Shown here in pieces: positions 410 to 24,785 of a DNA stretch of 30,252 nucleotides. This DNA comes from a virus. Made by a program: the position numbers and the translations under genes. The notes under the pieces are model-generated. The model ran no database searches. It saw only the letters and a program-made list of their open reading frames with translations, and had not been told where the DNA came from. Numbering within the stretch: the first letter of the stretch is position 1; every line of letters begins with the position of its first letter. The stretch spans positions 1 through 30,252 of IMG/VR virus record IMGVR_UViG_3300049216_000270; one strand, given 5' to 3'.

Positions 410-411
410 GG

Positions 412-3217: not shown

Positions 3218-3263
3218 GGCAATTTCTCCGTAAATCGCCGACGCCCTATAGTGCGAAGCCCCC

Positions 3264-3450: not shown

Positions 3451-3472
3451 CAGATAAATTATTGACACAATT

Positions 3473-5865: not shown

Positions 5866-6062
5866 CACTTCTCCTCTTCGGGTTTGGCGGCGGCTGTGCC
5901 GCGTTTCGTCGTGATCACTTCGGCGAGAATCAGCACACCCGCGGCGATGGAACCGGCCGGGAAATAAATTCGCCCCACCCCATAAACGATCAGCCCCGCG
6001 CCGAGAATGGCGAGGATGGTGACCGCGTCGACGCTGGGGAGTTTGATTCGGGTAATTTTCAT
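5865..6062 (-). CDS. Small two-helix membrane protein between terminase and portal genes
   Basis: A 65-residue protein. Start ATG 6062 overlaps the TerL stop and its own stop overlaps the portal start. It has two hydrophobic segments: about residues 13-30 (AVTILAILGAGLIVYGVG) and 37-49 (GSIAAGVLILAEV), with charged ends (KITRIK at the N-terminus, KPEEEK at the C-terminus). Tiny membrane proteins in this position are common in HK97-like phages but have no assigned role; holin-like activity cannot be excluded. I do not recognise a named family. Confidence 0.75.
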   Translation of the reverse strand: MKITRIKLPSVDAVTILAILGAGLIVYGVGRIYFPAGSIAAGVLILAEVITTKRGTAAAKPEEEK

Positions 6063-8879: not shown

Positions 8880-9190
8880 CGGCCAAATCCCCCATCTTCG
8901 GTGGCGGTCTTGTGGTTGTGGCACCCCTCACAAAGCGGCTGGTGGTTGGCGGGATCCCAAAAAAGTTGCTCATTGCCGCGGTGCGGCGTGATGTGATCGA
9001 CCACCGTGGGCGGCGTGGCTTTGCCTTCCGCCTTGCACCGGACGCATATGGCATTCTGCGGCTGGCACAGGAACCACCGCCGATACTTCTGCCACCGCGC
9101 CCCGTAGCCACGCTGCGCCGCCGTCCCCCGGCGCTCGTCATGGTGCCGGGGGCGTTCTGCAGGGCGGTGAATGGGGGGGCGGGTGGGCAC
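8876..9190 (-). CDS. HNH endonuclease associated with packaging genes
   Basis: A 104-residue protein using GTG 9190, with an excellent GGAGGTGAG site seven bases upstream. The zinc and catalytic elements are all present: C49xxC52 (CVRC), the DH pair in VVDHITPH (64-70), N82 in WDPANHQ, C87xxC90 (CEGC) and HNHK (91-94). HNH proteins encoded next to the small and large terminase are needed for cos-end cutting in HK97-like phages. That suggests, but does not prove, cos packaging here. It overlaps the PLD-like gene by ATGA. Confidence 0.93.
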   Translation of the reverse strand: MPTRPPIHRPAERPRHHDERRGTAAQRGYGARWQKYRRWFLCQPQNAICVRCKAEGKATPPTVVDHITPHRGNEQLFWDPANHQPLCEGCHNHKTATEDGGFGR

Positions 9191-11053
9191 TCAACTCACC
9201 TCCTGGGCGATGGACTGAATTTCCAGCGATCCTTTGGCGAGCGGGGTTTCGTCGGTCACATCCCACAACGAATAGGAGAGTAGGCGGAGCTTCGCAGTGT
9301 CCTCTGCCTCGAGGGTAACGGTGACGGTGCTGTTGCCGGTGCCGCTGATGCTGAGGCCGCCGGCGGTGGCGTTGTCCTTCACGATCACCGGATCATTGAG
9401 GGCCTGACGAGGCGAGGCGGCGAAACGTACCGTCTTGCCCGCAAGGTTGATCGGCGTGCCGGTCGCATCGGCCACACTGAACGCGAAAACGGCGATGGCA
9501 TTTTGATAGGCGACGATCGATCCGCCGATCACCTCTCCGGTGGAGACGGTGGCAGATGTGGGGGTGATGGTGATGTTGGCGCTTCCGCTGGGGGCGAGGG
9601 CGAGGGAGCCGGCGGTGAACGAGGCGTTGGCGTGTCCGCTGTTCAAGGTCATGTTGTGCAAATCGGATAGCGTTTGACCCTGTGTCCCGCCGAGCGACAC
9701 ATTGCTGATCGAGATATTGCCGACGGCGGCCATGGTTTCGTTGGCCGCGTCGCTGACGTTCTGGCCCGTGGCCAAACCACTGCGCACTGCGGACAGAGAG
9801 GCGTTGCTGAGGGCGACGTTGCCGATCGCGGTGAGAATGGCAGTCTCCGCGGTTGTGACGTCGCTGGTGGATGCGGGAACGGCGGGTAGATTGTCCGTCT
9901 TGGCTTTGATCGCGGCGAGCGTGGCTGTGGTGTCCACGGCCACTATGGCGCTGGAGAGGATGGCCACGCGGTTCGTGCTGTCGCTGGAGGCGGTGCCGGT
10001 GCCGGTGATGCTGATGCCTTCCTGAGCGGCGGCCGAGGCGACGGTGTAGGTGAACGTGTATTGACCAGTGGCGGCGTGGGTGACGGCAGAGAGGTTGCCG
10101 CTTCGGCTTGTGCCAGCGGCGTTGGCGGCGGTAATCGTCGGAGAAGCTGACAGGTCCAGAAGATGCCCCTCGGCGTCTTTGACGAGCATGGTGAGCGGAT
10201 ATGCGATCGACCCGCTGGCCGGAACCTCCATTTGCGTCGGGCCGTAGATGACGGCGATGGCGGAGAGGTTGTTGAAGTTGGCGATGGCGGTGGCGACCGC
10301 GGAAAGGGATGACGCGTTGGCGAGTGCGGTCAATCCCGCACCGGCAGTGCCGACCGTGGTGGTAAGGTTGGCGAGGTTCGTTGCGTTAGCGAGCGTGGTC
10401 AGGCCCGAACCTGTTGCCCCAATTCGCGCAAAGCTGTCCCCTGTCTGGGACACTGACGAAACACCATTGACGCTGAATGCGCCGGTCACGGTGAGGGTGG
10501 TGAAAGTAACGCCGGGTTGAGCACTATTGAGGGTGACGTTTCCCGTTACTGTGCGAGTTGCTGCCCCCCACACGGCGCTGGCAATCGCAGACAGCCCGCT
10601 CGCATCCGGATCGGCGGCAGATGCCAGCGTCGATTCGTTGTAGTAGTCGGCGTCGAATTGGGTGAGGCCGCGGCCACTCACCCCGCCGGCGAGATTGTTG
10701 AAGCCGATTTGCAAGATGTTGACCTGGGGAGTTTGCACGTCCAAGAACGGGGCAATCAGATGTTTGCCGCTCGCATCAGCGATAATGGTGACGCGCCCGG
10801 CTGCGCTGATCGCTGCGTTCGGCATGTCGAGGCGGTACCAACCTCCTGATCGTTCTTTGATCCCACCCGACGTGAATGCTGTGGTGATGGCGGAGATATC
10901 GCTGAGTGTGACGCTGGTGGCGGCTGCATTAGTTCCCGTCGAGTAACTGACGGACGGAAAAGTTGATGCGACCAAGCCGGTAACGGCAAGGCCGGTGTCA
11001 TCGACGATTTGCACGTCGATGGAAAGCGCGGTTGTTCCAGGGGCCACAATCAT
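9191..11053 (-). CDS. Large Ala/Thr-rich virion surface or fibre-like protein
   Basis: A 620-residue protein starting at ATG 11053 and overlapping the LamG gene. It has no signal peptide and no long hydrophobic helix. The N-terminal 110 residues look like a beta domain (GGWYRLDMPNAAISAAGRVT). Residues about 200-270 are repetitive, with several variants of LTTLANATNLANL, as in trimeric fibre shafts. A second beta region near 280-360 resembles an Ig-like fold (DAEGHLLDLSASPTITAANA). The C-terminal about 110 residues (PINLAGKTVRFAASPR, then STVTVTLEAEDTAKLRLL) match the style of baseplate/receptor-binding support domains such as BppU. It is a probable adhesin or virion decoration protein, oddly placed before the packaging genes. 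Confidence 0.6.
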   Translation of the reverse strand: MIVAPGTTALSIDVQIVDDTGLAVTGLVASTFPSVSYSTGTNAAATSVTLSDISAITTAFTSGGIKERSGGWYRLDMPNAAISAAGRVTIIADASGKHLIAPFLDVQTPQVNILQIGFNNLAGGVSGRGLTQFDADYYNESTLASAADPDASGLSAIASAVWGAATRTVTGNVTLNSAQPGVTFTTLTVTGAFSVNGVSSVSQTGDSFARIGATGSGLTTLANATNLANLTTTVGTAGAGLTALANASSLSAVATAIANFNNLSAIAVIYGPTQMEVPASGSIAYPLTMLVKDAEGHLLDLSASPTITAANAAGTSRSGNLSAVTHAATGQYTFTYTVASAAAQEGISITGTGTASSDSTNRVAILSSAIVAVDTTATLAAIKAKTDNLPAVPASTSDVTTAETAILTAIGNVALSNASLSAVRSGLATGQNVSDAANETMAAVGNISISNVSLGGTQGQTLSDLHNMTLNSGHANASFTAGSLALAPSGSANITITPTSATVSTGEVIGGSIVAYQNAIAVFAFSVADATGTPINLAGKTVRFAASPRQALNDPVIVKDNATAGGLSISGTGNSTVTVTLEAEDTAKLRLLSYSLWDVTDETPLAKGSLEIQSIAQEVS

Positions 11054-11775
11054 GCCGATGCCGCCTTTCTGCGAAGTCTGAGGAGGTGGGAGAATGCTCC
11101 GGTGTAGGCATAGAGAGCGGCGACTTCGGTGGAGGAGAGGGCGCGGCTGTAGACGCGGACTTCATCGAGCGAGCCGGTAAAAAATCTTTGAAACGCGCCG
11201 TTAATTGAGGCCGCACCAACGCTGAAAGGAGCCGAGGCGTGTATCGGTCCTTGCGAGTCGGTCACAGATGCGAATGCGGCACCATTGATGTAAATGTTCC
11301 ACGCCGATCCATCATAAGTGCCACACACATGCGTCCAAGTGTTGACGGAGATGCTGGTACCGTAAGACGTTTTCATCCCATGAATGAGGTTGGTGCTACC
11401 GCCATAGGTGTACCAGCCTATGTTTCCCCCCTGTAAGCTCATCGCATATTGTTCGTTCAACCCGTCATATCCTTTTTCGATGATATTGGCGTAATGACTG
11501 GGCGTGCCGTCATCACCACCGGTGGGCAGGCTGGTTGGATAAATCCACGCTGACACTGTGATAGCACCGGTGATGTCCAAAGCGGTTGGCGTGCCTGCCG
11601 TCACATACTGACTCGACCCATTGAAGGTTAGCGCCTGCTTAATTTTCCCTGTGGCAGATCCCGGAGAGCCAGCGAGCGTGCCGTTGTTGCCGCCGCTGCC
11701 GCGATCCGTGATCGTGCTGCCAATGGTGTCTGCGGAGTCGCAGGTGTAGTAGAGGATGGGATCATTGATCGGCAT
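11050..11775 (-). CDS. LamG / concanavalin-like domain protein
   Basis: A 241-residue protein with GGGAGG before ATG 11775. Residues 1-215 are a single Laminin_G_3-type jelly roll: ILYYTCDSADTIGSTITDRG, ALTFNGSSQYVTAG, ITVSAWIYPTSLPTGG, TWTHVCGTYDGSAWNIYING and the closing FTGSLDEVRVYSRALSSTEV. Such domains bind carbohydrate and occur in phage fibres and head decorations. There is no signal peptide, consistent with assembly into the virion. It shares a 14-base overlap with the upstream gene and 4 bases with the downstream fibre-like gene, so the three are probably translated together as a surface module. Target sugar cannot be read from the sequence. Confidence 0.85.
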   Translation of the reverse strand: MPINDPILYYTCDSADTIGSTITDRGSGGNNGTLAGSPGSATGKIKQALTFNGSSQYVTAGTPTALDITGAITVSAWIYPTSLPTGGDDGTPSHYANIIEKGYDGLNEQYAMSLQGGNIGWYTYGGSTNLIHGMKTSYGTSISVNTWTHVCGTYDGSAWNIYINGAAFASVTDSQGPIHASAPFSVGAASINGAFQRFFTGSLDEVRVYSRALSSTEVAALYAYTGAFSHLLRLRRKAASA

Positions 11776-12352
11776 TCAGCGATGCCTCCCACGTCGTAAG
11801 CATCGCATCAATCGACGCCGGCACAGTCACGGCATTCCCCGCCAAGAGCGATGCGAGCATGGGGGCGAGCACTTCATTCATCGCGTTTCCAAAAAACTGG
11901 GGGAGTTGGGTTTGGAGCGAGACGATCTGCTGATATTGAGCCAACACCGCCCGTGCGGCCGTCACGTCAGCGGTCGCGACGACATAGCCGAGCGGGTACG
12001 ACACGCTGCACGTCGCTGCGTTCGCTTCGTCCTGGGTGCAAATTCCAGCCGTCACCAGTGCGGCAATTGTCTCTGCTGCGTTGGCGTTCGAGGGGAGAAA
12101 TCCTTTTCCGCTGAGGATCGTAAGGGCGTATCCCGCCAACGCATTCCCCGCCGCCGATGCCGCCTGCAATGTCTGCTGCACCTGTGCCGCTCGCGTTGCA
12201 CCCCATGCGGCTCCGAGTTCAGTAAACGTAACGAAGGTGTTCAGGGACGTGTACGTGGGCGCGCTCAGTGCCGTAGCCGCAGCCGTGTCGTCGGCAATAG
12301 CAACGATGGTCGGGTTGGCGAGGGCGTTGAGCAGGAAAGGGGAAATGGCCAT
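11762..12352 (-). CDS. Ala-rich helical protein of unknown function, surface-protein module
   Basis: A 196-residue protein with CGGAG ahead of ATG 12352. It is about one quarter alanine and mostly predicted helix, with no membrane segment. Notable stretches are AQVQQTLQAASAAGNALAGY (56-75), AETIAALVTAGICTQDEANA and ARAVLAQYQQIVSLQTQLPQ. The pair of cysteines is not in a metal-site pattern. Its stop lies inside the start of the LamG gene. I do not recognise a family. Location between the papain-fold protein and the LamG gene suggests a virion or chaperone role, which is guesswork. Confidence 0.65.
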   Translation of the reverse strand: MAISPFLLNALANPTIVAIADDTAAATALSAPTYTSLNTFVTFTELGAAWGATRAAQVQQTLQAASAAGNALAGYALTILSGKGFLPSNANAAETIAALVTAGICTQDEANAATCSVSYPLGYVVATADVTAARAVLAQYQQIVSLQTQLPQFFGNAMNEVLAPMLASLLAGNAVTVPASIDAMLTTWEASLNADQ

Positions 12353-12364
12353 GGGGAAACTCCG

Positions 12365-12535
12365 TTACTTTTTTGACTTTGCGGCGAGGCGTTGTCTCGC
12401 TGCCTCGATGTCTGCATTGGCCATTTCGTGAACCAGCCTGCGAAAATTGGCGGCCACTTCTGTCTGGCTGATCACCACGCCCCGCGGTGGTGCCGGTGTG
12501 TAATCCTTGACCATGCTCTCGGGCCGATCGCGCAT
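12365..12535 (-). CDS. 56-residue hypothetical protein
   Basis: A small charged protein from ATG 12535, overlapping the preceding stop as TGATG. It starts MRDRPESMVKDYTPAPPRG and ends with a basic helix, IEAARQRLAAKSKK. The tight coupling on one side, the 12-base gap to the next gene and typical codon use argue that it is real despite its size. A longer frame (to 12601) would run into the papain-fold gene and lacks a ribosome site. No family is recognised; the pattern of a proline-rich start plus amphipathic helix suggests a small accessory or scaffold peptide. Confidence 0.6.
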   Translation of the reverse strand: MRDRPESMVKDYTPAPPRGVVISQTEVAANFRRLVHEMANADIEAARQRLAAKSKK

Positions 12536-13335
12536 CAAGCCGCCTTTGAAATGGAGGCCAGATACGAATTCAGCGCCGCCTGGTTGAATCCTGCCGGGCA
12601 CACACCCGTCGGCAGCAGCATGTCCGTTGAGACGATGGCGTAGGCCTCATCGCAATATGCCGCGATGAATGCCCACGTCACGCGGATCAACTGCCCCCAC
12701 GAAATGACGAGCAACCCGTCGAGGTCATACCCCACCACCGTCGTCCGCGTGATCGGGCCATAGGTGGACCCGGCCACACAATGGCCGCCCCACGATCCCG
12801 GCTTGCCCTTGCCCTTCAAGCCGCCATTGGGCACGTCCCACACGGTGGCGTTCTCGACGGAGGCAGGAAGCTGAAAGCCGAGCACCAAACCCTCGAAGAG
12901 CCACAGTGCGGTTTTCATTTGGAGTTGGTTGGTGGGTTCAACGGCGGCGAAAGCACCGATCTTGTGGCCGGCGATGCCGGAGGTGCGCCAATACTTCATC
13001 ACGTCCAGCAGAACGCACCCGTTGTCGTTCGCCCCCGTCTTGGGGTTGTATCCGCTGACCGCGCTGTAGGCCTTTACGATCTGCGCATCCGTCGGCACGA
13101 ATTCGGTGCCGGCGTTCGCTGTCCGCATCATGATGAGGTGGCCGGGCCCGGCAATGGCGCAATCCCCCAGTGTGTCGTTTTTCATCATCCCCCACGAATC
13201 CCCGACCTTGGCGCTGTAGTCGCACGTGGGCGGTGCCGCGGGGAGCGTGGCGGCGGTGAGGATGGCGGCGAGCATGAGGGTGCGGGGGTCATGCTTGGCG
13301 GCGAGCTTTCCAAGTTTGCGGCTGATCGGGGGCAT
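12535..13335 (-). CDS. Papain-like cysteine peptidase-fold protein
   Basis: A 266-residue protein with CAGGAG before ATG 13335. The opening KLGKLAAKHDPRTLML and the block SWGMMKNDTLGDCAIAGPGH are typical of a phage- and prophage-borne C1-like family. Cys59 in GDCAIAG sits where the papain nucleophile is expected, His185 in SWGGHCVAGS is the likely base, and ISWGQ (211-215) matches the closing SWG strand. YNPKTGANDNGC and DVMKYWRTSGIAGHKI are also conserved in that family. It lacks a signal peptide. It may act as a lysin-type peptidase (it follows two membrane proteins) or as a virion protein; the sequence does not decide. Confidence 0.75.
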   Translation of the reverse strand: MPPISRKLGKLAAKHDPRTLMLAAILTAATLPAAPPTCDYSAKVGDSWGMMKNDTLGDCAIAGPGHLIMMRTANAGTEFVPTDAQIVKAYSAVSGYNPKTGANDNGCVLLDVMKYWRTSGIAGHKIGAFAAVEPTNQLQMKTALWLFEGLVLGFQLPASVENATVWDVPNGGLKGKGKPGSWGGHCVAGSTYGPITRTTVVGYDLDGLLVISWGQLIRVTWAFIAAYCDEAYAIVSTDMLLPTGVCPAGFNQAALNSYLASISKAA

Positions 13336-13381
13336 GGCGGCGGCTCCTGTTTGATTGACGGTGATCGGAAGTTGGTGGCGA

Positions 13382-14194
13382 TTAGGTGGACTGCGGTGCG
13401 GCCGACGTTCCCTTCCACCATGCCGTGATCTCTGGCCAGTACCGCCGGACCACGATCACCACGATGAGGGCGGCGACGGAAATGCCAGTCCACAAAATGA
13501 TTTTTTCTATTGGGTCGAGAAATCTTGCGATCGTCAGCAGCGCCAGCCCCCCGCCTCCGATGATGGCCGCCAGTTCATATGCGAAGTCGCCCAGCTTGCT
13601 CACCCACGCGCCCACCACGGGGATTGATTCGGCGAAGAACGCCAGCAGCGCCAGACCGACGGCGGCGACGATGCACGAGACACCAATCACCTCGAGCTCA
13701 GTCTTGGCGGGGTTGGCGGCCTTGAGGGTTTTATTTTCCGCCTCAGTTTTTGTGAACTTCTTGGCGTCCTTTGTCGCGGACTTCTGCGCCCCGGTCAGGG
13801 CGGTGGTGGCGGCGGCGGTGTGGACGGCGGCGGCGTCGAGGTGAACGCCCAGCGCCGTGCCCGCGGTGGCGAGGCCGGTGCTGGCATCGTCGAGGTTCTT
13901 GCTGATCTCGGCTTTCTGGGTGGTGGCGGTAGTCGGCAATGTGGCCAGCGATTCCTTGGCGGCCTGCACTTTCTGCTGTGCCACCGCAACGCCGGCGGCG
14001 TCCGATTTCGCCGCGGCAACGTCAGTGGCGATGCTTCCCGCGGCGGCCTGAGCGGTGGCGATCTGCTGGGGCGTAGTCGGGAGAGTGCTCGGATTGTCCG
14101 CGTTCTCGGATGCACATCCGCCCAGGGCAAGTAGGATTGCCGAAATGCCGATGAGGGTCAGCACAGCACAAAGACTCCAGAAAATGATCTTCAT
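13382..14194 (-). CDS. Lipoprotein with coiled coil and three C-terminal membrane helices (lysis/spanin candidate)
   Basis: A 270-residue protein with CTGGAG before ATG 14194. Residues 1-26 are a signal peptide ending in an LGGC lipobox with Cys27. Residues about 40-165 are Ala/Thr/Lys-rich helix of coiled-coil type. Three hydrophobic helices follow near 168-188, 205-223 and 232-250, then a short basic tail. A lipid anchor plus a long helix plus membrane spans is unlike ordinary o-spanins, which lack the extra helices; a unimolecular spanin-like or envelope-spanning role is possible. It lies next to a second membrane-anchored coiled-coil protein and upstream of the papain-fold gene, so a lysis cassette is the best guess. 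Confidence 0.65.
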   Translation of the reverse strand: MKIIFWSLCAVLTLIGISAILLALGGCASENADNPSTLPTTPQQIATAQAAAGSIATDVAAAKSDAAGVAVAQQKVQAAKESLATLPTTATTQKAEISKNLDDASTGLATAGTALGVHLDAAAVHTAAATTALTGAQKSATKDAKKFTKTEAENKTLKAANPAKTELEVIGVSCIVAAVGLALLAFFAESIPVVGAWVSKLGDFAYELAAIIGGGGLALLTIARFLDPIEKIILWTGISVAALIVVIVVRRYWPEITAWWKGTSAAPQST

Positions 14195-14207
14195 GGGGAA
14201 GCTCCAG

Positions 14208-14597
14208 TTATTTTTTTTCGCGCAGTGCGCCGATGAGTGACGCTGTCTGCAGTTTGATTTCTTGCTGCACCAGACTGAGTTGGCTCACCAGTTCTCGCCC
14301 CGACATGCCGTGCGCCTCTCGCTCTTTCGTGAGCGCTTCAAGGAACTCAATACGCTGGGATTGCAGGGATTCGGTGATGTGGCGGAGCTGCACACCGTGA
14401 TCGATTTGAATCTGCTGGAGCGCCGTGAAAAAATCTTTTGCCTGCTGCTGATTGAGCCGGTGTGATTCCTCGAGGCATTCCCGAAAATCCTTCTCCCGGT
14501 CCGGCAGATATTTCCACAGCACATATGTCAGAATCGCGGAGACGACGCCAAGAGCGCCGAGGTCGAGCATGAGCTTGAGGATCGTTGCGAAATCCAA
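14208..14597 (-). CDS. Single-pass membrane protein with long coiled coil (holin/lysis-associated candidate)
   Basis: A 129-residue protein. I place the start at TTG 14597 because AGGGAG lies eight bases upstream and the sequence then opens MDFATILKLMLDLGALGVVS; the longer frame to 14654 runs through the terminator hairpin. Residues 7-29 are one membrane helix, followed by KYLPDREKDFRECLEES and a long charged coiled coil to the C-terminus. This is the first gene of the late block, immediately behind a strong terminator with only about 30 bases between them. Such one-helix-plus-coil proteins accompany holins or act as virion/tail-associated membrane proteins; no family is identified. Confidence 0.65.
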   Translation of the reverse strand: MDFATILKLMLDLGALGVVSAILTYVLWKYLPDREKDFRECLEESHRLNQQQAKDFFTALQQIQIDHGVQLRHITESLQSQRIEFLEALTKEREAHGMSGRELVSQLSLVQQEIKLQTASLIGALREKK

Positions 14598-14628
14598 GGC
14601 GGCACTCCCTGAGTTGGTCGATCCCAAA

Positions 14629-14681
14629 AGAAAAACGCCCGTCCCTGATCGCACTGCATGCAGTCAGGCGGGCGTTTTTCT
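14629..14681. terminator. Strong bidirectional intrinsic terminator at early/late boundary
   Basis: AGAAAAACGCCCG (14629-14641) and CGGGCGTTTTTCT (14669-14681) are perfect 13-base inverted repeats. The stem continues inward with CCTGA/TCAGG, and the loop holds a perfect 12-base palindrome, ACTGCATGCAGT (14653-14664). A-runs and T-runs at the outer ends give a U-tract in both directions. It separates the early operon from the late genes. Confidence 0.9.
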
Positions 14682-14743
14682 TCTACCCCCCTGTCGAGAC
14701 TGGCCAGAATCGATAGGGAGGCGGGCTATTCGTGATGCGTCAG

Positions 14744-15034
14744 CTAGTTTCGCCGCGGATGAGCTTGAAATGCAACCATAAATTCGTTCCATGTCAATAA
14801 TTGTTCGGCAGAGCTGCACGCTTTGCGGACGCTGGCCGGGTTAATCGTCCACTTCCGCCGCTGGCCGGCGGGGTTGCCGTCTTCGGCCTCCAGCTCCCCG
14901 CATTCGCACCGCCGCCCCACCGTCCGCACCGACACTTTTAAGACTCGCGCGGCCGTCTTGGGATCCCACCATTCGCTCCGATCATCCATGGTTGATCTCT
15001 TTTCATCTGCCATCCATGTCAGGTCAATGTGCAT
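14744..15034 (-). CDS. Small helix-turn-helix DNA-binding protein
   Basis: A 96-residue protein. ATG 15034 follows a G-rich GGGGGGGTGAACG site; ATGs at codons 8 and 16 are also possible. The core reads WWDPKTAARVLKVSVRTVGR then RRKWTINPASVRKACS. This is a MerR/excisionase-like helix-turn-helix (DPKTAARVLKVSVRTV) with a wing. Its place as the last gene before the late terminator makes it a candidate regulator of late transcription, but that is inference from position. It lacks any enzyme domain. Confidence 0.7.
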   Translation of the reverse strand: MHIDLTWMADEKRSTMDDRSEWWDPKTAARVLKVSVRTVGRRCECGELEAEDGNPAGQRRKWTINPASVRKACSSAEQLLTWNEFMVAFQAHPRRN

Positions 15035-15123
15035 CGTTCACCCCCCCCTTGATTTAATTCGCGGAAAAACGTGCGAGGTTGGCATGCGGTCTGGAGCGCG
15101 AAGGCCCTGAGGATTTTTACCCC

Positions 15124-15669
15124 CTATCCCCCCGGCACATACGTCACATTGTCCGCTCCATCCCTACGCACCCGCTGCCGCATCCTGCCCGGTTGCAAGG
15201 CATTCATGTACCAGCGCCCCAGCCCGATGGCGTCGGCAACATCTCCGCCTGGGTCGGTGGTCGGCTTGTACTGTCGGAAGGCTGAGGCGATGAGGGTGCT
15301 GCGGTCGGCTTTGCTCACCCCCCGCGTCCACACGTTCTCCTCCAGCGTGGTCACGCCCTCCGGCAACAACACCTCGCACGTTCTCCACAGATAACCCACC
15401 GCCATTCCATACACGCCAAGCCCGGCACCGTTCATGCCCCGCTGTCGTCCGCGGCGTGCCACCTTGCCGCTCGTGATCTCAATGACGATCTCCGTCGGCT
15501 TGGCTTCGGTAATCAGCGCGGCGAGGTCGCGGCCGAAGCTGGCGATGCGGACGATGGCGGCATCACTCGACTTGCCGGGCTTGAGCAAGCCGGCCTCGGC
15601 GAGGTGGTTGGCACTGTGCATGAGCGCATAGCCGACGCGCGTGGATGATGGATCAATCGCAAGAATCAT
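15124..15669 (-). CDS. RuvC-like Holliday junction resolvase
   Basis: A 181-residue protein from ATG 15669; the start lies within the last codons of the zinc-ribbon gene. The RNase H-like fold shows the four expected acidic sites: Asp6 in MILAIDPSSTRVGYALM, Glu64 in EIVIEITSG, and Asp143/Asp146 in DPGGDVADAIGLGRWY. The block YGMAVGYLWRTCEVLLPEGV also fits. Length is close to bacterial RuvC (about 170). In phages such enzymes resolve branched DNA before packaging. There is no ruvA or ruvB neighbour, as usual for phage resolvases. Confidence 0.88.
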   Translation of the reverse strand: MILAIDPSSTRVGYALMHSANHLAEAGLLKPGKSSDAAIVRIASFGRDLAALITEAKPTEIVIEITSGKVARRGRQRGMNGAGLGVYGMAVGYLWRTCEVLLPEGVTTLEENVWTRGVSKADRSTLIASAFRQYKPTTDPGGDVADAIGLGRWYMNALQPGRMRQRVRRDGADNVTYVPGG

Positions 15670-15916
15670 TTGTGTTTGTGGGTTCCGATTCGAGTATGAG
15701 AGTGTTTCCATCCGTCCCCAACTGCACCAACGCTGCGCGCACCGCTGCGGTGTAACCATCTGCCAACGGTCGATACAAAGCCGCCTGCACCCGCTTCGGC
15801 AATCGCTTCCAGCACACGATGCACACCGTCTGCTTGGCGATCTTCCGCCCAGCGCATGCCGGGCATGTGGTGGAGCGCAGAGACACCAGCACGTTTTTGA
15901 TGGTGAATGCGCTCAC
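15653..15916 (-). CDS. Small zinc-ribbon protein
   Basis: An 87-residue protein using GTG 15916 with GAGGTGAAGCC upstream; the start overlaps the preceding stop (GTGA). Two CxxC pairs, CPAC at 18-21 and CIVC at 32-35, define a zinc ribbon. The next segment (WKRLPKRVQAALYRPLADGY, then TAAVRAALVQLG) is helical and basic, typical of small phage nucleic-acid-binding proteins. It runs into the RuvC-like gene by 17 bases. A partner or substrate cannot be named. Confidence 0.75.
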   Translation of the reverse strand: MSAFTIKNVLVSLRSTTCPACAGRKIAKQTVCIVCWKRLPKRVQAALYRPLADGYTAAVRAALVQLGTDGNTLILESEPTNTNDSCD

Positions 15917-16302
15917 GGCTTCACCTCAGGCAACGGCGCGGGCGTGACATATTTGAATTCGATGCGGTTAACAAAACTATCGGGCGTCGCGCCAACATGA
16001 TGTGCGCAGAACATGAGCAAAAAATCTGCTGGCGTCATGTTCGGAAACCCTTCGGCGATCATTTCTCCCCGTCCATAGCCACCCGCGCCTTCAATAATTC
16101 GATGAAGGCGTTCGCGCCTTACCGAGACGATCTCAATCTCTCGAATTTTCTCAATCTTCCCACCCCTGCCGAGTCCTTGGCACTTCACGCACGCCATCAC
16201 CCGATCACCGGGCTTCAAAAACCACCAGCCATTGCGGCGCGTGACCGTTTTGGTGCCGTCGCGCACTTGCTGGGTTGTGAGCATAAAAGACATATTCCTC
16301 AT
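15913..16302 (-). CDS. ASCH-like (PUA-fold) protein
   Basis: A 129-residue protein, ATG 16302 overlapping the upstream stop; ATG at codon 4 (MSFMLTT) may be used. The pattern MLTTQQVRDGTKTVTRRNGW, KPGDRVMACVKCQGLGRGGK, IEIVSVRRERLHRI and EGFPNMTPADFLLMFCAHH is a well-known phage protein type assigned to the ASCH/PUA-like superfamily, which binds RNA or modified nucleosides. It has a single CVKC pair. The exact biochemical role is unknown. Its gene lies in a run of nucleic-acid enzymes and overlaps both neighbours. Confidence 0.75.
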   Translation of the reverse strand: MRNMSFMLTTQQVRDGTKTVTRRNGWWFLKPGDRVMACVKCQGLGRGGKIEKIREIEIVSVRRERLHRIIEGAGGYGRGEMIAEGFPNMTPADFLLMFCAHHVGATPDSFVNRIEFKYVTPAPLPEVKP

Positions 16303-17366
16303 AGCTTCACCCCGCGCGGCATTTCATCCCATGTGCATTCATCGAGAGCCCGACCGGCGGCAATCTTTCCCACGCGCGCCATTTGATGACCTGGTGCATC
16401 CATTTGGCAGTAGGGTGTGATCATTTTCCCATCGGGTTTGATGAGGCACACCGGGGTTTTCGGTGGGCCGGCGGGGATGTCGCGGTTATTGGGGAACGGC
16501 AACCATTCCCCCCACTGTTTGAAGAAAAACGCAACTCCGGCGGCTTGGCACTGATCGCGCAGGGATCGTGCCCAGTTGGGGTGCATCGGGCGGGCGTCGT
16601 GGCCGCTCTCTCCGCCGACGATTACCCAATTAAGGCGCTGTGCAAGCCACGACATCCATCCGTGAGGTGATTGGTGAAAATAAGGGGGCCTTGGCAACAA
16701 ATTCAAATCCACCGGCCCCAACAACGGCTCACATGAGAGAAAACGCACCGCGGCGGGAATTTTGAGAAGATGCGGAATGCGGTCCTGGGCGGCGGGCTGA
16801 TTTTCGACGCTTGTGCCGATCCAAACATTTGCAGCCGCATCACCGCCGATCCATGCGTTTAGCCAAAATGAAAGATCGTTTTTCTCAAAATCACCGTCGT
16901 GGTCTGCGAAGTAGTTTTTGTCATCTGGGTTACCACCTTGGGACAGGATGAGCGTTTCTTCGATGATGTTCCGCCAGTGCTGGGGGCGCTTCGTGAGCAA
17001 CAGCCAATCCAGGTGGGGCGTCTGCCGAATCAAATCAAACAGCCTCACCCGCGCCGCCCTCACCATTGGCAAAGCTTCCGCCGGCATCGTCTCTGGCCCC
17101 TCAAAAACGTCTGCTAAAGACGCGCAGAACACGCGGTGACGCTCTCCTGCAGCATCCGCCGCGGCATTCCATTTCAGCGGTTCGCGCCAATACGCATCCG
17201 CTGCCACCACCCGTGTCCCCTTCGGTCCCCACACACCCAACACCTTGGGATTGCGGTTGCTGAGGGTGTCGGCGTAGCAGTTTTTGCAGCCTTCCGAGAC
17301 TTTGGTACACCCGCGCCAAGGGTTGAAGGTGTGGTGCGTCCATTCGATTTTGCTGTCAGCGGCCAT
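16299..17366 (-). CDS. Gp37/Gp68 family protein (DUF5131, three-Cys motif)
   Basis: A 355-residue protein from ATG 17366 (GAAAGGATCGAAA upstream). It opens SKIEWTHHTFNPWRGCTKVS then EGCKNCYA, giving Cys20, Cys27 and Cys30, a C-x6-C-x2-C motif characteristic of PF07505, the phage Gp37/Gp68 family. The pattern is reminiscent of radical SAM iron-sulphur sites, and downstream blocks (LDWLLLTKRPQHWRNI; WIGTSVENQPAAQDRIPHLL; RFLSCEPLLGPVDL; WVIVGGESGHDARPMHPNWA; FFFKQWGEW) all match the family. Length is normal to long because of a 25-residue insertion near 165-190. The reaction is unknown. The partner protein TcmP often found next to members is not seen here. Confidence 0.9.
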   Translation of the reverse strand: MAADSKIEWTHHTFNPWRGCTKVSEGCKNCYADTLSNRNPKVLGVWGPKGTRVVAADAYWREPLKWNAAADAAGERHRVFCASLADVFEGPETMPAEALPMVRAARVRLFDLIRQTPHLDWLLLTKRPQHWRNIIEETLILSQGGNPDDKNYFADHDGDFEKNDLSFWLNAWIGGDAAANVWIGTSVENQPAAQDRIPHLLKIPAAVRFLSCEPLLGPVDLNLLPRPPYFHQSPHGWMSWLAQRLNWVIVGGESGHDARPMHPNWARSLRDQCQAAGVAFFFKQWGEWLPFPNNRDIPAGPPKTPVCLIKPDGKMITPYCQMDAPGHQMARVGKIAAGRALDECTWDEMPRGVKL

Positions 17367-17377
17367 TTTCGATCCTT

Positions 17378-18016
17378 TCAAGAAATGCTGTGGTGTTTTT
17401 TGAGGACTTCCGCCGCCGCGTTCACCTGCGCCCATTTCGTTGGCGTGCCCTTGGCGTCCGGGTGGTGTTTTAGTGCCGCGGCTCGGTAAACAGTGCGGAA
17501 TGTGTCGACGGCGGCGATCATCGGTTGCCACCGATCCGGTATTCCCGCCAAGTCGGAAAGCAGCATTGCCGCCTCTTCCACCGTCATCGTGGCGGGTCCA
17601 ACTTCAATTCCCGATGGCAAGGCACGGAAGCCCGTGTACTGCTCTCCCCGGCTGATAATCCCCGTCTCTTCCACCAGTCGGAGGCGCTGCATTCCCAAAG
17701 CGATCGCGCGGATGTTGTCCGCCCAGTCGCAAAACTTGTCACACGAATACGTCATCGGCCCGTATTTCTGAGAGGTGAACGCCACGGCCACTCGGGGCGA
17801 GCGTGGGCGAGCGTTGGAATAAGGCGTCCCGTTTCTGCTGATATGTTCCTCGGAAATGTCCATCTGAATGACGACATCCCCTTTGACCTGCAGGTGCATT
17901 ACCTCGCGCTCAAGATCGTTGAGCGTCCGCGCATAACCAACGCTGTACGGGCTGGCCTTGCGGTTCCGTGTCTCCTGGCGAGACCATTTTTCGAGTGGTC
18001 GGGTGATAAATTGCAT
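17378..18016 (-). CDS. Phage protein with C-terminal J-domain
   Basis: A 212-residue protein with AAGGAATCGTAG before ATG 18016. The N-terminal 100 residues resemble a phage family with a TRPLEKWSRQETRNRKASPY start and an RNGTPYSNARPRSPRVAVAF core. The C-terminus (about 172-210) is a short J-domain: FRTVYRAAALKHHPDAKG, with the HPD triplet at 185-187, followed by the third helix WAQVNAAAEVLKKHH. HPD motifs stimulate DnaK ATPase, so this protein probably recruits the host chaperone, for replication-complex assembly or remodelling. The link to DnaK is inferred; the motif is seen. Confidence 0.8.
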   Translation of the reverse strand: MQFITRPLEKWSRQETRNRKASPYSVGYARTLNDLEREVMHLQVKGDVVIQMDISEEHISRNGTPYSNARPRSPRVAVAFTSQKYGPMTYSCDKFCDWADNIRAIALGMQRLRLVEETGIISRGEQYTGFRALPSGIEVGPATMTVEEAAMLLSDLAGIPDRWQPMIAAVDTFRTVYRAAALKHHPDAKGTPTKWAQVNAAAEVLKKHHSIS

Positions 18017-19267
18017 CTACGATTCCTTGTGTGTTCCGAACAATCCAACCGCCTCCGGCTGCAGACAGCCGGGGCTGAACCAAATCCGCTCCCGCGCGGC
18101 GTTGGCCTTTCCTTCCTCTGTGCGATTCCCGTAGCCCCCGCGCGACTTCCACGGCACCTTTTCCCATCCGGCGGCGTCGATGGCGGGATACTCCCCCTCC
18201 AGCCCGCACAACGCGAAGCGAATTTCCCGATCACCGCCCCACTTGAGGCACCACGCCGACACTTCATCACACAGCGCCCCCACGTCCTGGGTTTTATCGT
18301 TGGCGTAGATGTGGCTGGAGCGGTTCTTGGTGCCATCGGCGAGGTGTTTGCGGTAAGGCGGATCAAGGAAAACGCCAGTGGTGCCGAGACGGGTCAAGGT
18401 CGAATCCGAATCGCACACCCGCGCCCAATGGCCACAGCACACGCGGACGGGGCGCAGACGGTCCTGCAGGCGCTGCATCCAGTCGGTTAGCCACCGGCGG
18501 CGGGTTTCGCACGTTCCGAGAGAGTCATTGCTGTTCACGCCGCGCCCGCGCGTAAATTCATCAGTGATGGCGGGGCGGTGGGTGTCATAGGTTCCTATTC
18601 CGTTGACGCCTTTGCCGCCACCCACGACACGCTCGAGGGTAGGCACTTTTTCACCCGTCGATTTCATCTGCCCATTGACACCCAAGCCGTAGGCGGAGCC
18701 GTCGGCGGAGATAACGGGGCGTTTTTGGTCGAGCGCATTCACGCTTTGGTTCGGCCGCATGGTCGGACGGGTCTGCCATGGATCGCTTCCCGAAGGTTGG
18801 CACACGCCTCGGTCATTTCGCTGGCCAATGCCGCTACGTCCTTCCCATTCCGGATTTTCGCACCACCCGCTTCCGATCCAGCTGCAAGCCCCCCAGCACC
18901 ACCACCCGGCAATCTTGGCGTCAAAATGCTCCGGATCCTCGCGCACCCGCTGCAGCTCCGCGTTGGCGGTTGCGGATTGCACGAGCCAGCGGTGGCGGGC
19001 ATGGAGGTCGGTTTCGTTCACTGGCCAGTCGGCGTGCCTGGCGACGGCTTCGGGGTCCGCCTGCACCGCACGCCAAAAGTTCGACACGTAGGCGTTAAGG
19101 TCGTTGATGGTTTCGATGGCACCGACGACGGGCCGGCGGAGAAGAATGGCCGCGCTGAAGGCAAACGGCTCGATGTAATTGCGAGGATTGCCCAACCGCG
19201 CCCACACGAGGTCGGCAACTTGCGATTTTCCGCCAAATGCGGGGAATGGGGCTTTGAGGGGTGTCAT
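18017..19267 (-). CDS. DNA N6-adenine methyltransferase, D12 class
   Basis: A 416-residue protein; ATG 19267 puts the SAM-binding motif right at the N-terminus as in the family, while the frame is open to 19357. Motif I is APFPAFGGKSQVADLVWARLG, followed by YIEPFAFSAAILLRR; the catalytic motif IV is DPPY at 302-305. A region of about 130 residues (135-265), rich in Gly, Trp and Cys, is inserted relative to Dam-type enzymes of 270-300 residues. It would methylate adenine in a specific site, as defence against host restriction or as replication mark. Target sequence cannot be deduced. It is followed directly by the J-domain gene. Confidence 0.88.
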   Translation of the reverse strand: MTPLKAPFPAFGGKSQVADLVWARLGNPRNYIEPFAFSAAILLRRPVVGAIETINDLNAYVSNFWRAVQADPEAVARHADWPVNETDLHARHRWLVQSATANAELQRVREDPEHFDAKIAGWWCWGACSWIGSGWCENPEWEGRSGIGQRNDRGVCQPSGSDPWQTRPTMRPNQSVNALDQKRPVISADGSAYGLGVNGQMKSTGEKVPTLERVVGGGKGVNGIGTYDTHRPAITDEFTRGRGVNSNDSLGTCETRRRWLTDWMQRLQDRLRPVRVCCGHWARVCDSDSTLTRLGTTGVFLDPPYRKHLADGTKNRSSHIYANDKTQDVGALCDEVSAWCLKWGGDREIRFALCGLEGEYPAIDAAGWEKVPWKSRGGYGNRTEEGKANAARERIWFSPGCLQPEAVGLFGTHKES

Positions 19268-19337
19268 CGTCACGAGACACCCCGCGAAAATATCGGGCGA
19301 CGGTGGAGCGTCCCGGCATAAATTAAATAGTGATGCG

Positions 19338-19568
19338 TCAAGCTCCGCCCCCTTCACCGATCATGTTCATCGGCGCATAAAACGTCATGAATTCTTCACC
19401 GCCAGCCAAATCCACGACCTCGTGATCTTGGACAAGCTTCATGAGAGCCGGCGTGCCGTCGGCGTGTTTCGTGTGAATCATTGCGAGGCAGAGCTTGTAG
19501 GAATGCCGATCGCCATTGCGGGCCATGATGACGACGTGTTCGCGCAGATTGCCTTTTTTATCTTTCAT
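19338..19568 (-). CDS. 76-residue hypothetical protein between two methyltransferase genes
   Basis: A small protein from ATG 19568 that overlaps the cytosine methyltransferase stop (ATGA). It begins MKDKKGNLREHVVIMARNGD and has a regular strand pattern (HSYKLCLAMIHTKHADGTPA, then LMKLVQDHEVVDLAGG), suggesting a compact alpha/beta fold. No membrane segment, no metal site. No family is recognised. Coupled translation suggests that it works with or was acquired with the methyltransferase. Confidence 0.6.
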   Translation of the reverse strand: MKDKKGNLREHVVIMARNGDRHSYKLCLAMIHTKHADGTPALMKLVQDHEVVDLAGGEEFMTFYAPMNMIGEGGGA

Positions 19569-21394
19569 GCCGTTTTCCTTTTTTCTTTCACGATCAATTC
19601 GGGCACGTTCGCGCGGACGATGGCGGCGGCGACAAGCGGGGCGACGGAGTTGCCGATCTTGGCGACGGCGGCACTGGCGGTGCGCGGGAGGATGTAATCG
19701 GCGGCAAGTTCCGGGCCGAATTGGGCGCGGAGAAGTTCACGCGGGGTGAGCATTCGCAAGCCGATGTCGGCGATGGCGTATTCTTGGCCACCGATCTGCA
19801 CGAGTCCGAAACGGTCCTTGGTGGTGATGGTGTGGAGCGGTTCGGTGACGGGTTGTCCCACGCCACAGCCGAAGTATTTGATGAGGAAGGCGCGAACCTC
19901 CCCGATGTGGCCTCCGCCCGCGCCCGCTGTCACTGTGGGCATGGGTTCATCGAGCGACGATCCCGTGGCGGTTCCGTAAAATTTTGTGAGGTGGGCGACG
20001 GAGAGGCCGAGAGCGTGTGCTGCACCTGCCGGCCTCGCTGATCCTCCACCGGAGGTGATGGTGGGCAATGGATCGGCCGGGTGCGTCCCGGCGCTGTCAC
20101 CGCGGTATTTATTCAGGAACGCGGCAACTAAAGCGGTATGCCGTCCACCGGCGCATATCGTCTGCATCGGGCGATCCACGCTCACGGCGTCCTGTCCCCC
20201 TGTCCTCATCCGAGCCAGCAACGGTGCCGCCACCGCCCACGATCCGCCCTTCGGGTTGGCCGTCACCGTCGCCATCGGTTCATCCGCCGGCCGGTGCCCC
20301 TCGCTCCAATTGGAATTGGCGATTTCCACAAGGTGGGGAGTGACGAGGGCGCGGTCGTTCTTGGCGGTGATCGTCCCTACCGGCGAATCCGCCCCCGTGG
20401 CTGGGGACTGTCCGGCCCGGCCGCCAACTCCAGCGACGTAGGGCGTCACGATGCCGTAACCGTGTTTGGCGGTGACGGTGCTGAGGGGAATGTCGAGCGG
20501 CTGGCCGCGGAAGTGCTCCCCGCCGTGCTGCACGTTGACGATGAAGGGGTGGGGGTTGTCGATGACGTACCGCTTGAGCCCCATGGCTATCCGGCGGAGA
20601 GTTTTTTCGGCGAGAGGGCGCTTTCGCTCGAAGATGCTGGGGCAGGGAATGCTCCAGTCGATGCACTCGGCGGCGGTACGAAATGGCAGTAGGCGGGGAT
20701 TTTTCTCCCGCGCCTTTTTACTTCCGTGAGTTGGTTCCGGCCAAATAATCGGCTGGCCGTCGCAACGAAATATGACGAACAGCCGCTTCCGGTGGGTGCA
20801 GGCTGCGATTACTTTCTCATCAACCTCCAGCCCGCACTCTGCGGCGTCAATGTCCTTCCATTCACTGATGTACCCCAACTTCCTCATCATGCCAATGAAT
20901 CGCATGAACGTCTGGCCCTTTTTGGATTTGATGGGCATGTTGCCAGCGTCGATCGGCCCCCAATCCTTAAACTCCCGCACATTCTCAAGGAAAATCACGC
21001 GGGGTTTTACCAGCTTGGCCCACTTCACTGCCACCCATGCCAGCCCTCGGATTTTCTTGCTCACCGGCTTCGCGCCCTTCGCGCGGCTGAAATGTTTGCA
21101 GTCGGGGCTGAACCACGCCACCCCCACCGGCCTCCCCGCGCACACCTGCACCGGATCCACATCCCACACCGATTCACAGAGGTGCCTGGTCTGGGGATGG
21201 TTCCGTGCGTGCATGTCGATGGCTTCGGGATCGTGGTTGATGGCGACATCGACGCTGCGGTGCAAGGCGAGCTCGATGCCCGTGCTGGCCCCGCCGCCGC
21301 CGGCAAAGTTGTCGATCAGCAACTCTTCCCCGGCAATGGCGGTTCGCCGCGCGCTTGGCCGCATGAAATTCGGGATGAGGGGGGTGTTTTTCAC
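19565..21394 (-). CDS. DNA cytosine-5 methyltransferase with internally repeated recognition region
   Basis: A 609-residue protein from GTG 21394 (GTGA overlap). Family motifs: I, LIDNFAGGGGASTGIE (26-41); IV, SPDCKHFS with catalytic Cys99 (PDC rather than PPC, common in phage members); VI, FLENVREF (135-142) with ENV; VIII, HRKRLFVIF (201-209); X, KIGNSVAPLVAAAIV (579-593). Between VIII and X, residues 303-528 hold seven copies of a P-(L/V/M)-x-T-(V/I)-x-(A/S/T) unit spaced 33-42 residues apart. The enzyme should methylate a specific cytosine to evade restriction. It is longer than the roughly 330-420 residues of simple C5 enzymes because of the repeats. Confidence 0.95.
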   Translation of the reverse strand: MKNTPLIPNFMRPSARRTAIAGEELLIDNFAGGGGASTGIELALHRSVDVAINHDPEAIDMHARNHPQTRHLCESVWDVDPVQVCAGRPVGVAWFSPDCKHFSRAKGAKPVSKKIRGLAWVAVKWAKLVKPRVIFLENVREFKDWGPIDAGNMPIKSKKGQTFMRFIGMMRKLGYISEWKDIDAAECGLEVDEKVIAACTHRKRLFVIFRCDGQPIIWPEPTHGSKKAREKNPRLLPFRTAAECIDWSIPCPSIFERKRPLAEKTLRRIAMGLKRYVIDNPHPFIVNVQHGGEHFRGQPLDIPLSTVTAKHGYGIVTPYVAGVGGRAGQSPATGADSPVGTITAKNDRALVTPHLVEIANSNWSEGHRPADEPMATVTANPKGGSWAVAAPLLARMRTGGQDAVSVDRPMQTICAGGRHTALVAAFLNKYRGDSAGTHPADPLPTITSGGGSARPAGAAHALGLSVAHLTKFYGTATGSSLDEPMPTVTAGAGGGHIGEVRAFLIKYFGCGVGQPVTEPLHTITTKDRFGLVQIGGQEYAIADIGLRMLTPRELLRAQFGPELAADYILPRTASAAVAKIGNSVAPLVAAAIVRANVPELIVKEKRKTA

Positions 21395-22008
21395 GATGCC
21401 ACCTTCCCGACTTTTCCAATCATGATCTGATGAGTGACGGGGTCAATCCGAAAAGCCAGGTCGTTTTCCTTTTCCAACCCCGCCACCAGCAGCATCCGCG
21501 TGCTGATGCCGATTTTCCCGTAGCCACAAAATTCTCCCGTGTCGCTGCGTCGTATCGGGCTAACGGACAATGTCCCGGTGAGCCGCTGACCCGCGGGGCG
21601 AATCGCTGCCAACAACTTCGCTTCGTAGGCGATTTTCTGGATGTAGCTCGGTTTCGCGTTCAGCTTTTCGGCCCATTCATGGGTGGTGAGTGTGCGGTGC
21701 TCTTTGATTGCCCACTCAAGCGCGACAATCACGGCGAACTTTGCGGTTGGCCGTGGCGCGGGAATTACTCTGTGCCTCTTCATGAAATTCCGCATGGTGC
21801 TTTCGGCTGTTTTAAAGAGCCGCGCCCACTGCGCGACGGGGCGAGGGTCGTCGTTGCGGATTGCCTCCAGTGTTTTGGCGATGGGGAGCCGGCGACACAC
21901 CCGCTTCGGCGGTGCCAAGAGTGCGGCGATGATCGGGCTGGCCGGCATGTCAAGGTTTTGGCCTGGCGGAACTTGGTGGGATTTGCGTTGTTGAGCGGTG
22001 ATGGTCAT
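21391..22008 (-). CDS. Helix-turn-helix protein of unknown function next to the replication initiator
   Basis: A 205-residue protein from ATG 22008, overlapping the initiator stop (ATGA). Residues 40-75 (RLPIAKTLEAIRNDDPRPVA, then QWARLFKTAESTMRNFMKRH) form a helix-turn-helix resembling AraC/Ada-type turns, and 85-125 (VIVALEWAIKEHRTLTTHEW, AEKLNAKPSYIQKIAYEAKL) a second. The C-terminal part includes basic and strand-forming segments. The pairing with an O-like initiator suggests a helicase-loader or replication regulator, but there is no Walker motif, so a DnaC-like ATPase is excluded. No family is recognised with certainty. Confidence 0.6.
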   Translation of the reverse strand: MTITAQQRKSHQVPPGQNLDMPASPIIAALLAPPKRVCRRLPIAKTLEAIRNDDPRPVAQWARLFKTAESTMRNFMKRHRVIPAPRPTAKFAVIVALEWAIKEHRTLTTHEWAEKLNAKPSYIQKIAYEAKLLAAIRPAGQRLTGTLSVSPIRRSDTGEFCGYGKIGISTRMLLVAGLEKENDLAFRIDPVTHQIMIGKVGKVAS

Positions 22009-22829
22009 TTGGCCTCCGTGGGCATGTTCTGGTTCAGGATGGAATTGAAGAGTGCGGCCTTGTCCCGCACCTTCGGCTTGTCCAGCATTTTTTTCCAAAG
22101 CGCCTGCACCCCTTCCAGCGTGTAGGCGGCGGCGTACCGGCGGGCTGGGTGCAGGTGAATTCCCCTCACCGATAGGAAGTTCAGCACCGCGGGGTCGTGG
22201 GGTGCCGGTGCCGCTGGGAGCGTTGAGGGGGTGGGTGTGGGGGGCGATGGGGGTGTGGGGGTGGGTGGGGGTGTTTTTTTCAAAGGCACAGCACACACCT
22301 CCACGCCCCGTGAAATGTGCTGTGATTTTTGTGAATACTGTGAGTGGGGGACGCTGAGCGTCCCTGTTTCCGACGCTGAGCGTCCCTGTTTCCTATCGCT
22401 GAGCGTCCCTGTTTCGAGACGCTGGGCGTCCCTGTTTCCGTCCGATACCGGGACGGTGCCGGTCCCTGTTTCCTCCTCTGAAACTAGGACGCTGGGCGTC
22501 CCTGTTTCAAAGAGGGGCGTGGCGGGGCGTGGGGGTGGGGTGAGGAGCTCCCATTCGTTCACCAGCCACCTCCCCCCGCCTTGGCATACCTTGCGTATGA
22601 GGCCCTTGGCCTCGAGCTGCTGTGCCGTCTTGCGAGCGCGGTTGACGTTGGCCGTCCCGCTGTTGCGGGCGATTCGCTCTGTGCTGACAGCGACACGGCA
22701 TGTCCTTCCGTCCGCGTCGTGGTAAAGGCTGATGTACACTTTTGACTCCAACTCGCTCAATCCGGCGAGGTGTCCGCCGTCGATGACTGCCCTCAGGCAA
22801 TGGAATTTGTAATGCTGCTCTTCCGCCAC
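22005..22829 (-). CDS. O-like replication initiator with iterons inside its gene
   Basis: A 274-residue protein; start GTG 22829, just behind tRNA-Phe, with a poor ribosome site. Residues 20-95 are a winged helix (LSELESKVYISLYHDADGR, VSTERIARNSGTANVNRARK, GGRWLVNEWEL), the DNA-binding domain. Residues 107-158 are encoded by the iteron array and carry four ETGT copies. A Pro/Thr linker follows (184-212), then a helical C-terminal domain (ARRYAAAYTLEGVQALWKKM) like those that contact helicase in phage initiators. Layout (N-terminal DNA binder, origin in the middle of the gene, C-terminal partner domain) parallels lambda O. Function is inferred from this architecture; no enzymatic motif is present. 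Confidence 0.75.
   Translation of the reverse strand: MAEEQHYKFHCLRAVIDGGHLAGLSELESKVYISLYHDADGRTCRVAVSTERIARNSGTANVNRARKTAQQLEAKGLIRKVCQGGGRWLVNEWELLTPPPRPATPLFETGTPSVLVSEEETGTGTVPVSDGNRDAQRLETGTLSDRKQGRSASETGTLSVPHSQYSQKSQHISRGVEVCAVPLKKTPPPTPTPPSPPTPTPSTLPAAPAPHDPAVLNFLSVRGIHLHPARRYAAAYTLEGVQALWKKMLDKPKVRDKAALFNSILNQNMPTEAK
22227..22271 (+). repeat. G-run tract with G-quadruplex potential
   Basis: The plus strand has at least seven runs of three or more Gs within 45 bases, separated by one to four bases. The minus strand codes the Pro/Thr linker of the initiator. The tract ends in seven Ts and lies 80 bases from the iteron array. Confidence 0.7.
22351..22508 (+). repeat. Iteron array: probable phage replication origin
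   Basis: Six direct copies of ACGCTGAGCGTCCCTGTTTC start at 22351, 22373, 22396, 22419, 22453 and 22489. Copies 1 and 2 are identical; 3, 4 and 6 differ by one base; 5 has ACGGTGCCGG at its left. Each begins with an inverted core (ACGCT-G-AGCGT). Steps are 22, 23, 23, 34 and 36 bases, so they fall in all three reading frames of the initiator gene. To the left lies a modestly AT-rich stretch (22317-22345). This resembles the lambda ori within gene O. Confidence 0.85.
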
Positions 22830-22863
22830 CTGATTCGGTGCTCCGGGGGTTTGCTTTTCAAAA

Positions 22864-22935
22864 TGCGTGGGGTCGGGATCGAACCAACGGCCTCGGCGTT
22901 TTCACCACCGCGCTCTTCCACTGAGCTACCCACAC
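22864..22935 (-). tRNA. tRNA-Phe (anticodon GAA)
   Basis: All arms fold. Acceptor GTGTGGG pairs with CCCACGC (one G-U), the D stem is GCTC/GAGC, the anticodon stem CGGTG/CGCCG encloses GTGAAAA with anticodon GAA, and the T stem GTTGG/CCGAC has loop TTCGATC. The discriminator is A and no CCA is encoded. It lies between two leftward early genes and would be cut out of their mRNA. Confidence 0.92.
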
Positions 22936-22982
22936 GAAAGCCCGAACCGCGGCACACACACGCGGCCCGGGCTGCGCCAGCG

Positions 22983-23417
22983 TTATCCCCCTGCCCCCCC
23001 AAGATCCCCCCCACCCCTCTCCTCCACCTCCCCAGTGTCGGGATTCACCTTGCGGCCGTCGGCGGTGGTGATGACGCCTTGGGCCGGCGTTGCCTTGCTC
23101 GATCCGCTCTTGCGCACGAAGAGTGCGGGTTCGTCGTCGTAGCCTTCATCCGCCATCGCCATCGTCATGCTGGCTGGGCGGTTCGGCACCACCATCTTGG
23201 TTGTGGCTTTGATGTTGAAGTGCATGTCGTGGGGCGACATCACGGAAAGCACGATGTCCACGCTGAGCTTGGCCTTGGCCTTGAGCGAGGCTTCACCGTG
23301 CTGTTTGACGTACTTCACCAGGACGGACTGCAGCTTGCGCATGTCCTCATTGATCTGTTTCTCGAAATTGCCCTCGTCAATCAGGCCGATTTCGAGTGGT
23401 ACCAGTTTCGTTGCCAT
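22983..23417 (-). CDS. Hypothetical early protein, 144 residues
   Basis: Starts at ATG 23417 with a weak CGGAACGAACCC site. The N-terminal 70 residues look like a folded alpha/beta domain: LVPLEIGLIDEGNFEKQIN, DMRKLQSVLVKYVKQHGEAS, LSVDIVLSVMSPHDMHFNIK. The C-terminus is acidic and glycine-rich (EERGGGDLGGAGG), probably disordered. Similar short proteins sit beside DUF2303-type genes in other phages, and I infer that the two act together, but the role is unknown. There is no catalytic or metal-binding pattern. Confidence 0.65.
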   Translation of the reverse strand: MATKLVPLEIGLIDEGNFEKQINEDMRKLQSVLVKYVKQHGEASLKAKAKLSVDIVLSVMSPHDMHFNIKATTKMVVPNRPASMTMAMADEGYDDEPALFVRKSGSSKATPAQGVITTADGRKVNPDTGEVEERGGGDLGGAGG

Positions 23418-24711: not shown

Positions 24712-24785
24712 TGGCGGGGGCCGGATTTGAACCGGCGACCTTCGGGTTATGAGCCCAACGAGCTGCCTGACTGCTCTACCCCGCT
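24712..24785 (-). tRNA. Initiator-type tRNA-Met (anticodon CAT) in the early operon
   Basis: Acceptor AGCGGGG pairs with CCCCGCC except at 1-72, which is A against C. The D stem is GAGC/GCTC with A11-U24. The anticodon stem has three G-C pairs (GGG/CCC) next to loop CTCATAA, and the T arm is GCCGG-TTCAAAT-CCGGC. An unpaired 1-72, A11-U24 and the GGG/CCC block are the hallmarks of bacterial initiator tRNA; elongator tRNA-Met lacks them. The discriminator is A; no CCA is encoded. In E. coli tRNA-fMet the 1-72 mismatch is C-A, so this version is reversed. Confidence 0.9.

Follow-up and report, generated by a model that had tools for sequence, protein, structure and literature searches.

Short direct repeats inside a gene of an uncultured phage raise two questions: whether the repeats are kept as DNA or as peptide and, if as DNA, whether they form the origin from which the phage replicates. 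The repeats lie in a fragment of 30,252 bp that is catalogued as viral (IMGVR_UViG_3300049216_000270), the whole of which is called the window here. The phage is of the HK97-type temperate kind, with recognised genes for terminase, portal, capsid, protease and integrase, and the recognised genes of the window are carried on its minus strand. The gene order is integrase, HTH_17, DUF2303, a 144-aa gene, a tRNA, the array gene, a 205-aa gene, and cytosine methyltransferase. The array gene is an open frame at 22005-22829 (minus strand) that starts with GTG and encodes an initiator-like protein of 274 aa, P0001. It shares an ATGA overlap with the next gene, that of 205 aa (21391-22008, minus strand), which occupies the position that P has in λ. 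This neighbour has no NCBIfam match up to an E value of 10, and neither a helicase nor a known loader is recognised among the proteins scanned. The phage has tRNA genes for Phe-GAA (22864-22935) and Met-CAT (24712-24785), the former ending about 35 bp before the start codon of P0001. Downstream of the initiator gene, a DUF5131 (Gp37/Gp68-type) gene is grouped with two genes for DNA methyltransferases (16299-21394).

The array spans 22348-22508. The initial annotation had placed six direct copies at 22351, 22373, 22396, 22419, 22453, and 22489, with steps of 22, 23, 23, 34, and 36 bp, and all the starts and steps are reproduced. As 23-bp units on the minus strand, the copies are copy 1, the AT-proximal one (GAAACAGGGACGCTCAGCGTCCC; 22348-22370), copy 2 (22370-22392), copy 3 (22393-22415), copy 4 (22416-22438), copy 5, the most diverged (22450-22472; 34 bp from copy 4), and copy 6 (22486-22508; 36 bp from copy 5). 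Read along the gene strand, the unit is GAAACAGGGAC-GCYCAGCG-(TCCC). Its 11-mer GAAACAGGGAC is invariant, with 0/66 positions differing across the six copies, against 14/72 differences in the other 12 columns (Fisher p = 7e-5, a value that treats the copies as independent, which they may not be). With up to one mismatch allowed, the 11-mer GTCCCTGTTTC occurs six times in the window, where 0.64 occurrences are expected from whole-window shuffles (largest count, 3), and all six are exact and lie within the array. There is no seventh copy in the window: on the same strand as the array, the closest match to the 23-mer outside it has eight mismatches.

The varying part of the unit is its palindromic half, whose stem is full in one copy of the six. 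Each repeat had been described as carrying the inverted core ACGCT-G-AGCGT; the description holds for the copies at 22351 and 22373, where the core is perfect, and fails for the other four. In the copies at 22419 and 22489 one pair of the core is broken (ACGCTGGGCGT), the copy at 22396 has lost the outer pairs, and the copy at 22453 reads ACGGTGCCGGT. Between copies 5 and 6, an inverted pair GTTTC...GAAAC (22468-22484) repeats the iteron end in reverse orientation and, as RNA, folds together with the adjacent sequences.

Are these copies conserved for their DNA or for the peptide that they encode? Four of them share one frame, in which they encode ETGT, one encodes GNRDAQR and another KQGRSAS, so that the reading in all three frames is reproduced. 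Along the gene the frames of the copies run 0, 0, 1, 0, 2, 0, copy 4 being in frame +1 and copy 2 in frame +2. The spacers between the copies are unrelated in sequence. As a yardstick for peptide repeats, 122 viral-contig arrays of three or more near-identical ACAGGGAC words were used; ordinary peptide repeats keep one frame, as 105 of the 122 do, whereas the window array uses three. The scan for ACAGGGAC triples gave more than 120 matches, mostly simple or single-frame peptide repeats, and, having fixed the word in advance, is uninformative on how common the word is. The use of three frames, the unrelated spacers, and the single invariant 11-mer support the proposal that selection has acted on the DNA and not on the peptide. 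Several direct repeats conserved as DNA within an initiator gene are a feature of in-gene iteron origins such as λ ori and SPP1 oriL, and the window array shows this feature.

The protein encoded around the array is divergent. Its N-terminal part, residues about 23-98 (22536-22763, minus strand), is likely a winged-helix DNA-binding domain, as suggested by a weak HTH_36 resemblance and by a profile of our own. P0001 scores 12.7 bits against HTH_36 (PF13730) over residues 23-78, below the curated cut-off of 25. A profile built from array-bearing HTH_36 initiators aligns to residues 29-98 and gives P0001 the top rank against about 700 decoys; the E value of 0.029 is weak and close to that of the second-ranked protein, a terminase small subunit frame (0.032). 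In profile searches P0001 passes no family cut-off, and it does not match Phage_rep_O (PF04492), to which λ O itself scores 5.7e-36. The single-sequence AlphaFold model is poor (mean pLDDT 49), at which level structure matches are meaningless, and a fold for the N-terminal domain from this model was rejected. The C-terminal domain, residues about 211-274 (22008-22199, minus strand), is delimited by position and has no family match; from that position, contact with a helicase loader is possible.

Searches for relatives returned little. No homolog of P0001 is found in viral contigs, phages or plasmids, even with a patterned scan, and scans of viral contigs for the exact repeat unit found no other occurrence. 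Across about 85,000 species genomes there is one chance-like match to the unit, a 21-mer in Clostridia, which resembles an intergenic terminator and was rejected as an iteron. The neighbouring DUF2303 gene as query gives no relatives. The terminase search recovers the same phage in a second viral contig (L235), plus distant relatives without arrays. This second contig is 99.96% identical to window positions 1-16895, extends about 2.5 kb beyond window position 1, and stops short of the array. Among phages that share the cytosine methyltransferase, 7/8 are without an array. A human gut phage (L141) has a short multi-frame ACGCATA cluster at 8310-8414, near a homologous methyltransferase gene.

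An origin would be expected to lie beside DNA that melts easily. By nearest-neighbor stability, the least stable 36 bp of the gene are at 22310-22345 (64% A+T), a candidate unwinding element that starts 6 bp behind the array, on the 3' side of the gene. When the same scan is applied to λ O with its annotated iterons, the corresponding 36-bp minimum begins 5 bp after iteron 4. Relative to the whole contig, the candidate element is modest: it ranks in the lowest 1.6% of all 36-bp stretches, at least 25 other sites are less stable, and it is therefore a local and not a global minimum of stability. Just behind the candidate element, a tract at 22224-22271 encodes a Pro/Thr-rich linker; it is G-rich on the plus strand, with many runs of 3-6 G and loops of 1-4 bases, in which a G-quadruplex could in principle form.

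How does this arrangement compare with origins already described? In λ, the iterons are in the middle of gene O, behind the DNA-binding domain, as they are in the window gene, where that domain is a probable one, and the least stable DNA begins 5-6 bp behind the array on the 3' side of the gene in both. The steps of the λ iterons are 20-24 bp; those of the window are 22-23 bp, with two extra copies at 34 and 36 bp. Unlike λ, the window has a different repeat, no match to Phage_rep_O and no recognisable P gene. An 8-mer, AAACAGGG, is common to the window unit and λ iteron 4; 35 of 3000 shuffled units equal it, and the sharing, having been noticed post hoc, is not counted as evidence. In the Stx phages P27 and 933W there are six iterons, of which the four beside the A+T rich region bind O strongly, while the two distal ones are bound weakly yet are needed for plasmid transformation (PMC7466680). 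The window likewise has four tight AT-proximal copies and two further out. In SPP1, gp38 binds direct repeats inside gene 38, beside an A+T rich unwinding element (PMC6316719). This origin, oriL, thus combines direct repeats in an initiator gene with A+T rich DNA as the window does, a likeness of layout. SPP1 differs in having another origin, oriR, at a separate site, and in that its loader and helicase are known (gp39 and gp40).

Four other explanations of the repeats have to be weighed. Under the first, they serve as an operator through which the encoded protein regulates its own gene or handcuffs DNA copies, and the origin is elsewhere. Iterons often serve both as origin and as operator or handcuffing sites, and here the repeats are inside the gene of their likely binder. 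However, their place is not that of a promoter, being more than 300 bp behind the start codon, a scan of 21900-23100 gave no promoter-like site, and the adjoining least stable DNA is a feature of origins; an operator in place of an origin is thus unlikely. In the second, the repeats act as RNA, with hairpins in the mRNA tuning translation or decay of the initiator message. The 191-nt transcript indeed folds better than every shuffle (z -5.8). But λ iterons are also palindromic, so folding does not separate RNA from origin, and it is the palindromic half that varies (full in one of six copies), while the 11-mer on the opposite side is invariant. A role as RNA is very unlikely.

The third possibility is that the repeats have no function as DNA, being a recent neutral duplication or a peptide repeat; it might be suggested by copies 1 and 2, which agree at 21 of 23 bases. 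Recent duplication is unlikely because the spacers share no sequence, and this explanation as a whole is highly improbable, given also the three frames, where peptide repeats mostly stay in one, and the confinement of differences to one part of the unit. Finally, a mobile palindromic repeat of the REP or Rickettsia palindromic element type, inserted in the gene and then multiplied, is scarcely credible: the palindrome is short, such elements can insert in genes, and a CGTC-tagged REP class exists (PMC3733652), but REP elements have many dispersed copies in both orientations, whereas the window, contigs and genomes scanned hold a single cluster of six direct copies, apart from the one terminator-like match, and the conserved part is not the palindrome. 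All four explanations fit less well than an origin; what weighs most against them is that the invariant part, an 11-mer, is not palindromic and that the copies are gathered in one direct cluster.

The array is thus very likely the theta-replication origin of the phage, a putative origin of the in-gene iteron type known from λ and SPP1 and presumably bound by the protein that the gene encodes. The order of elements in the gene (probable DNA-binding domain, iterons, least stable DNA, C-terminal domain) is like that of λ and supports the proposal that the array is an origin. The GC skew, suggested as a check, has neither a peak nor a switch at the array, in a contig that is a fragment. The array is probably a further example of a known origin design, one whose repeat word is new and whose initiator is divergent.

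By analogy with these systems, we infer a sequence of events at this origin. The N-terminal domain of P0001, probably a winged helix, would in each copy bind GAAACAGGGAC together with part of the half-palindrome that follows. The four copies at 22-23 bp, about two helical turns, would face the same side of the helix and make up the main complex of initiator and DNA, and the outlying pair, with steps of 34 and 36 bp, may be auxiliary sites. Binding to the iterons would bend and stress the weakly paired DNA at 22310-22345 behind copy 1, which would open and admit the helicase loader and the helicase.

Is the layout peculiar to this phage? For a motif-blind sample, HTH_36 matches were taken from 299 genomes, all of the phylum to which the genome labelled Clostridia belongs; 91 loci were read, with the window as the 92nd. 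Besides the window, 13 HTH_36 loci were flagged, among them a low-complexity false hit (L215) that was rejected, and 12/92 genes have multi-frame arrays just behind the DNA-binding domain. The steps in the 12 HTH_36 arrays are mostly about 22-23 or 33-45 bp, and their words are mutually unrelated (for example, ACAGAACC, CCCTAGCCG, and GACAAAAAT). A universal GGGAC origin core was considered and dropped, the motif-blind samples having yielded other words. The initiators of this kind from Bacillota (for example, L156, L158, L161, and L175) have the same gene layout as the window gene and a similar spacing, the steps in L175 being 25, 33, 33, 23, and 22 bp against 36, 34, 23, 23, and 22 in the window; their repeat words differ from that of the window, and P0001 resembles HTH_36 weakly. 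Among viral contigs, an HTH_36 gene with GTCCCCAAAACAGGGAC iterons in two frames is found in L009 (541-800), and also in L010 and L015; the word resembles TCCCTCAAAACGAGGGA of λ, and these genes are a true parallel to the window array.

Multi-frame arrays were also counted in open frames of at least 200 aa from phage and HTH_36 neighborhoods. They are present in 8 of 361, and 8/8 are initiator-like; because HTH_36 genes were deliberately over-represented in the set, the count measures false hits and not prevalence. P0001 is absent from this tally, probably removed by an overlap filter, and was found directly in the 92-locus scan. Two of the eight (L244 and L254) were reached only through a methyltransferase neighbor and have other DNA-binding regions. 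The least stable DNA is within 100 bp on the 3' side of the array in 11/15 array genes, or in 10/13 when the near-duplicates L161/L162 and L221/L228 are merged, with the caution that linkers of such proteins may be A+T rich for other reasons. The presence of the same signature in other initiator genes also supports the window array as an origin. On balance, we lean towards the view that in-gene iteron origins are a general design, at which phages and other mobile elements of many phyla have arrived with repeat words that are unrelated and with initiators whose DNA-binding regions are unrelated too, and that the design has a signature readable from sequence, namely, a repeat that spans several frames, placed behind the DNA-binding domain and ahead of the least stable DNA of the gene.

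In the present case, the likely origin of an uncultured phage without a close relative is located from sequence alone. The signature selected initiator genes without a false hit among the 361 open frames tested, and with it origins and initiators could be located in metagenomic phages even where the initiator has no family match.
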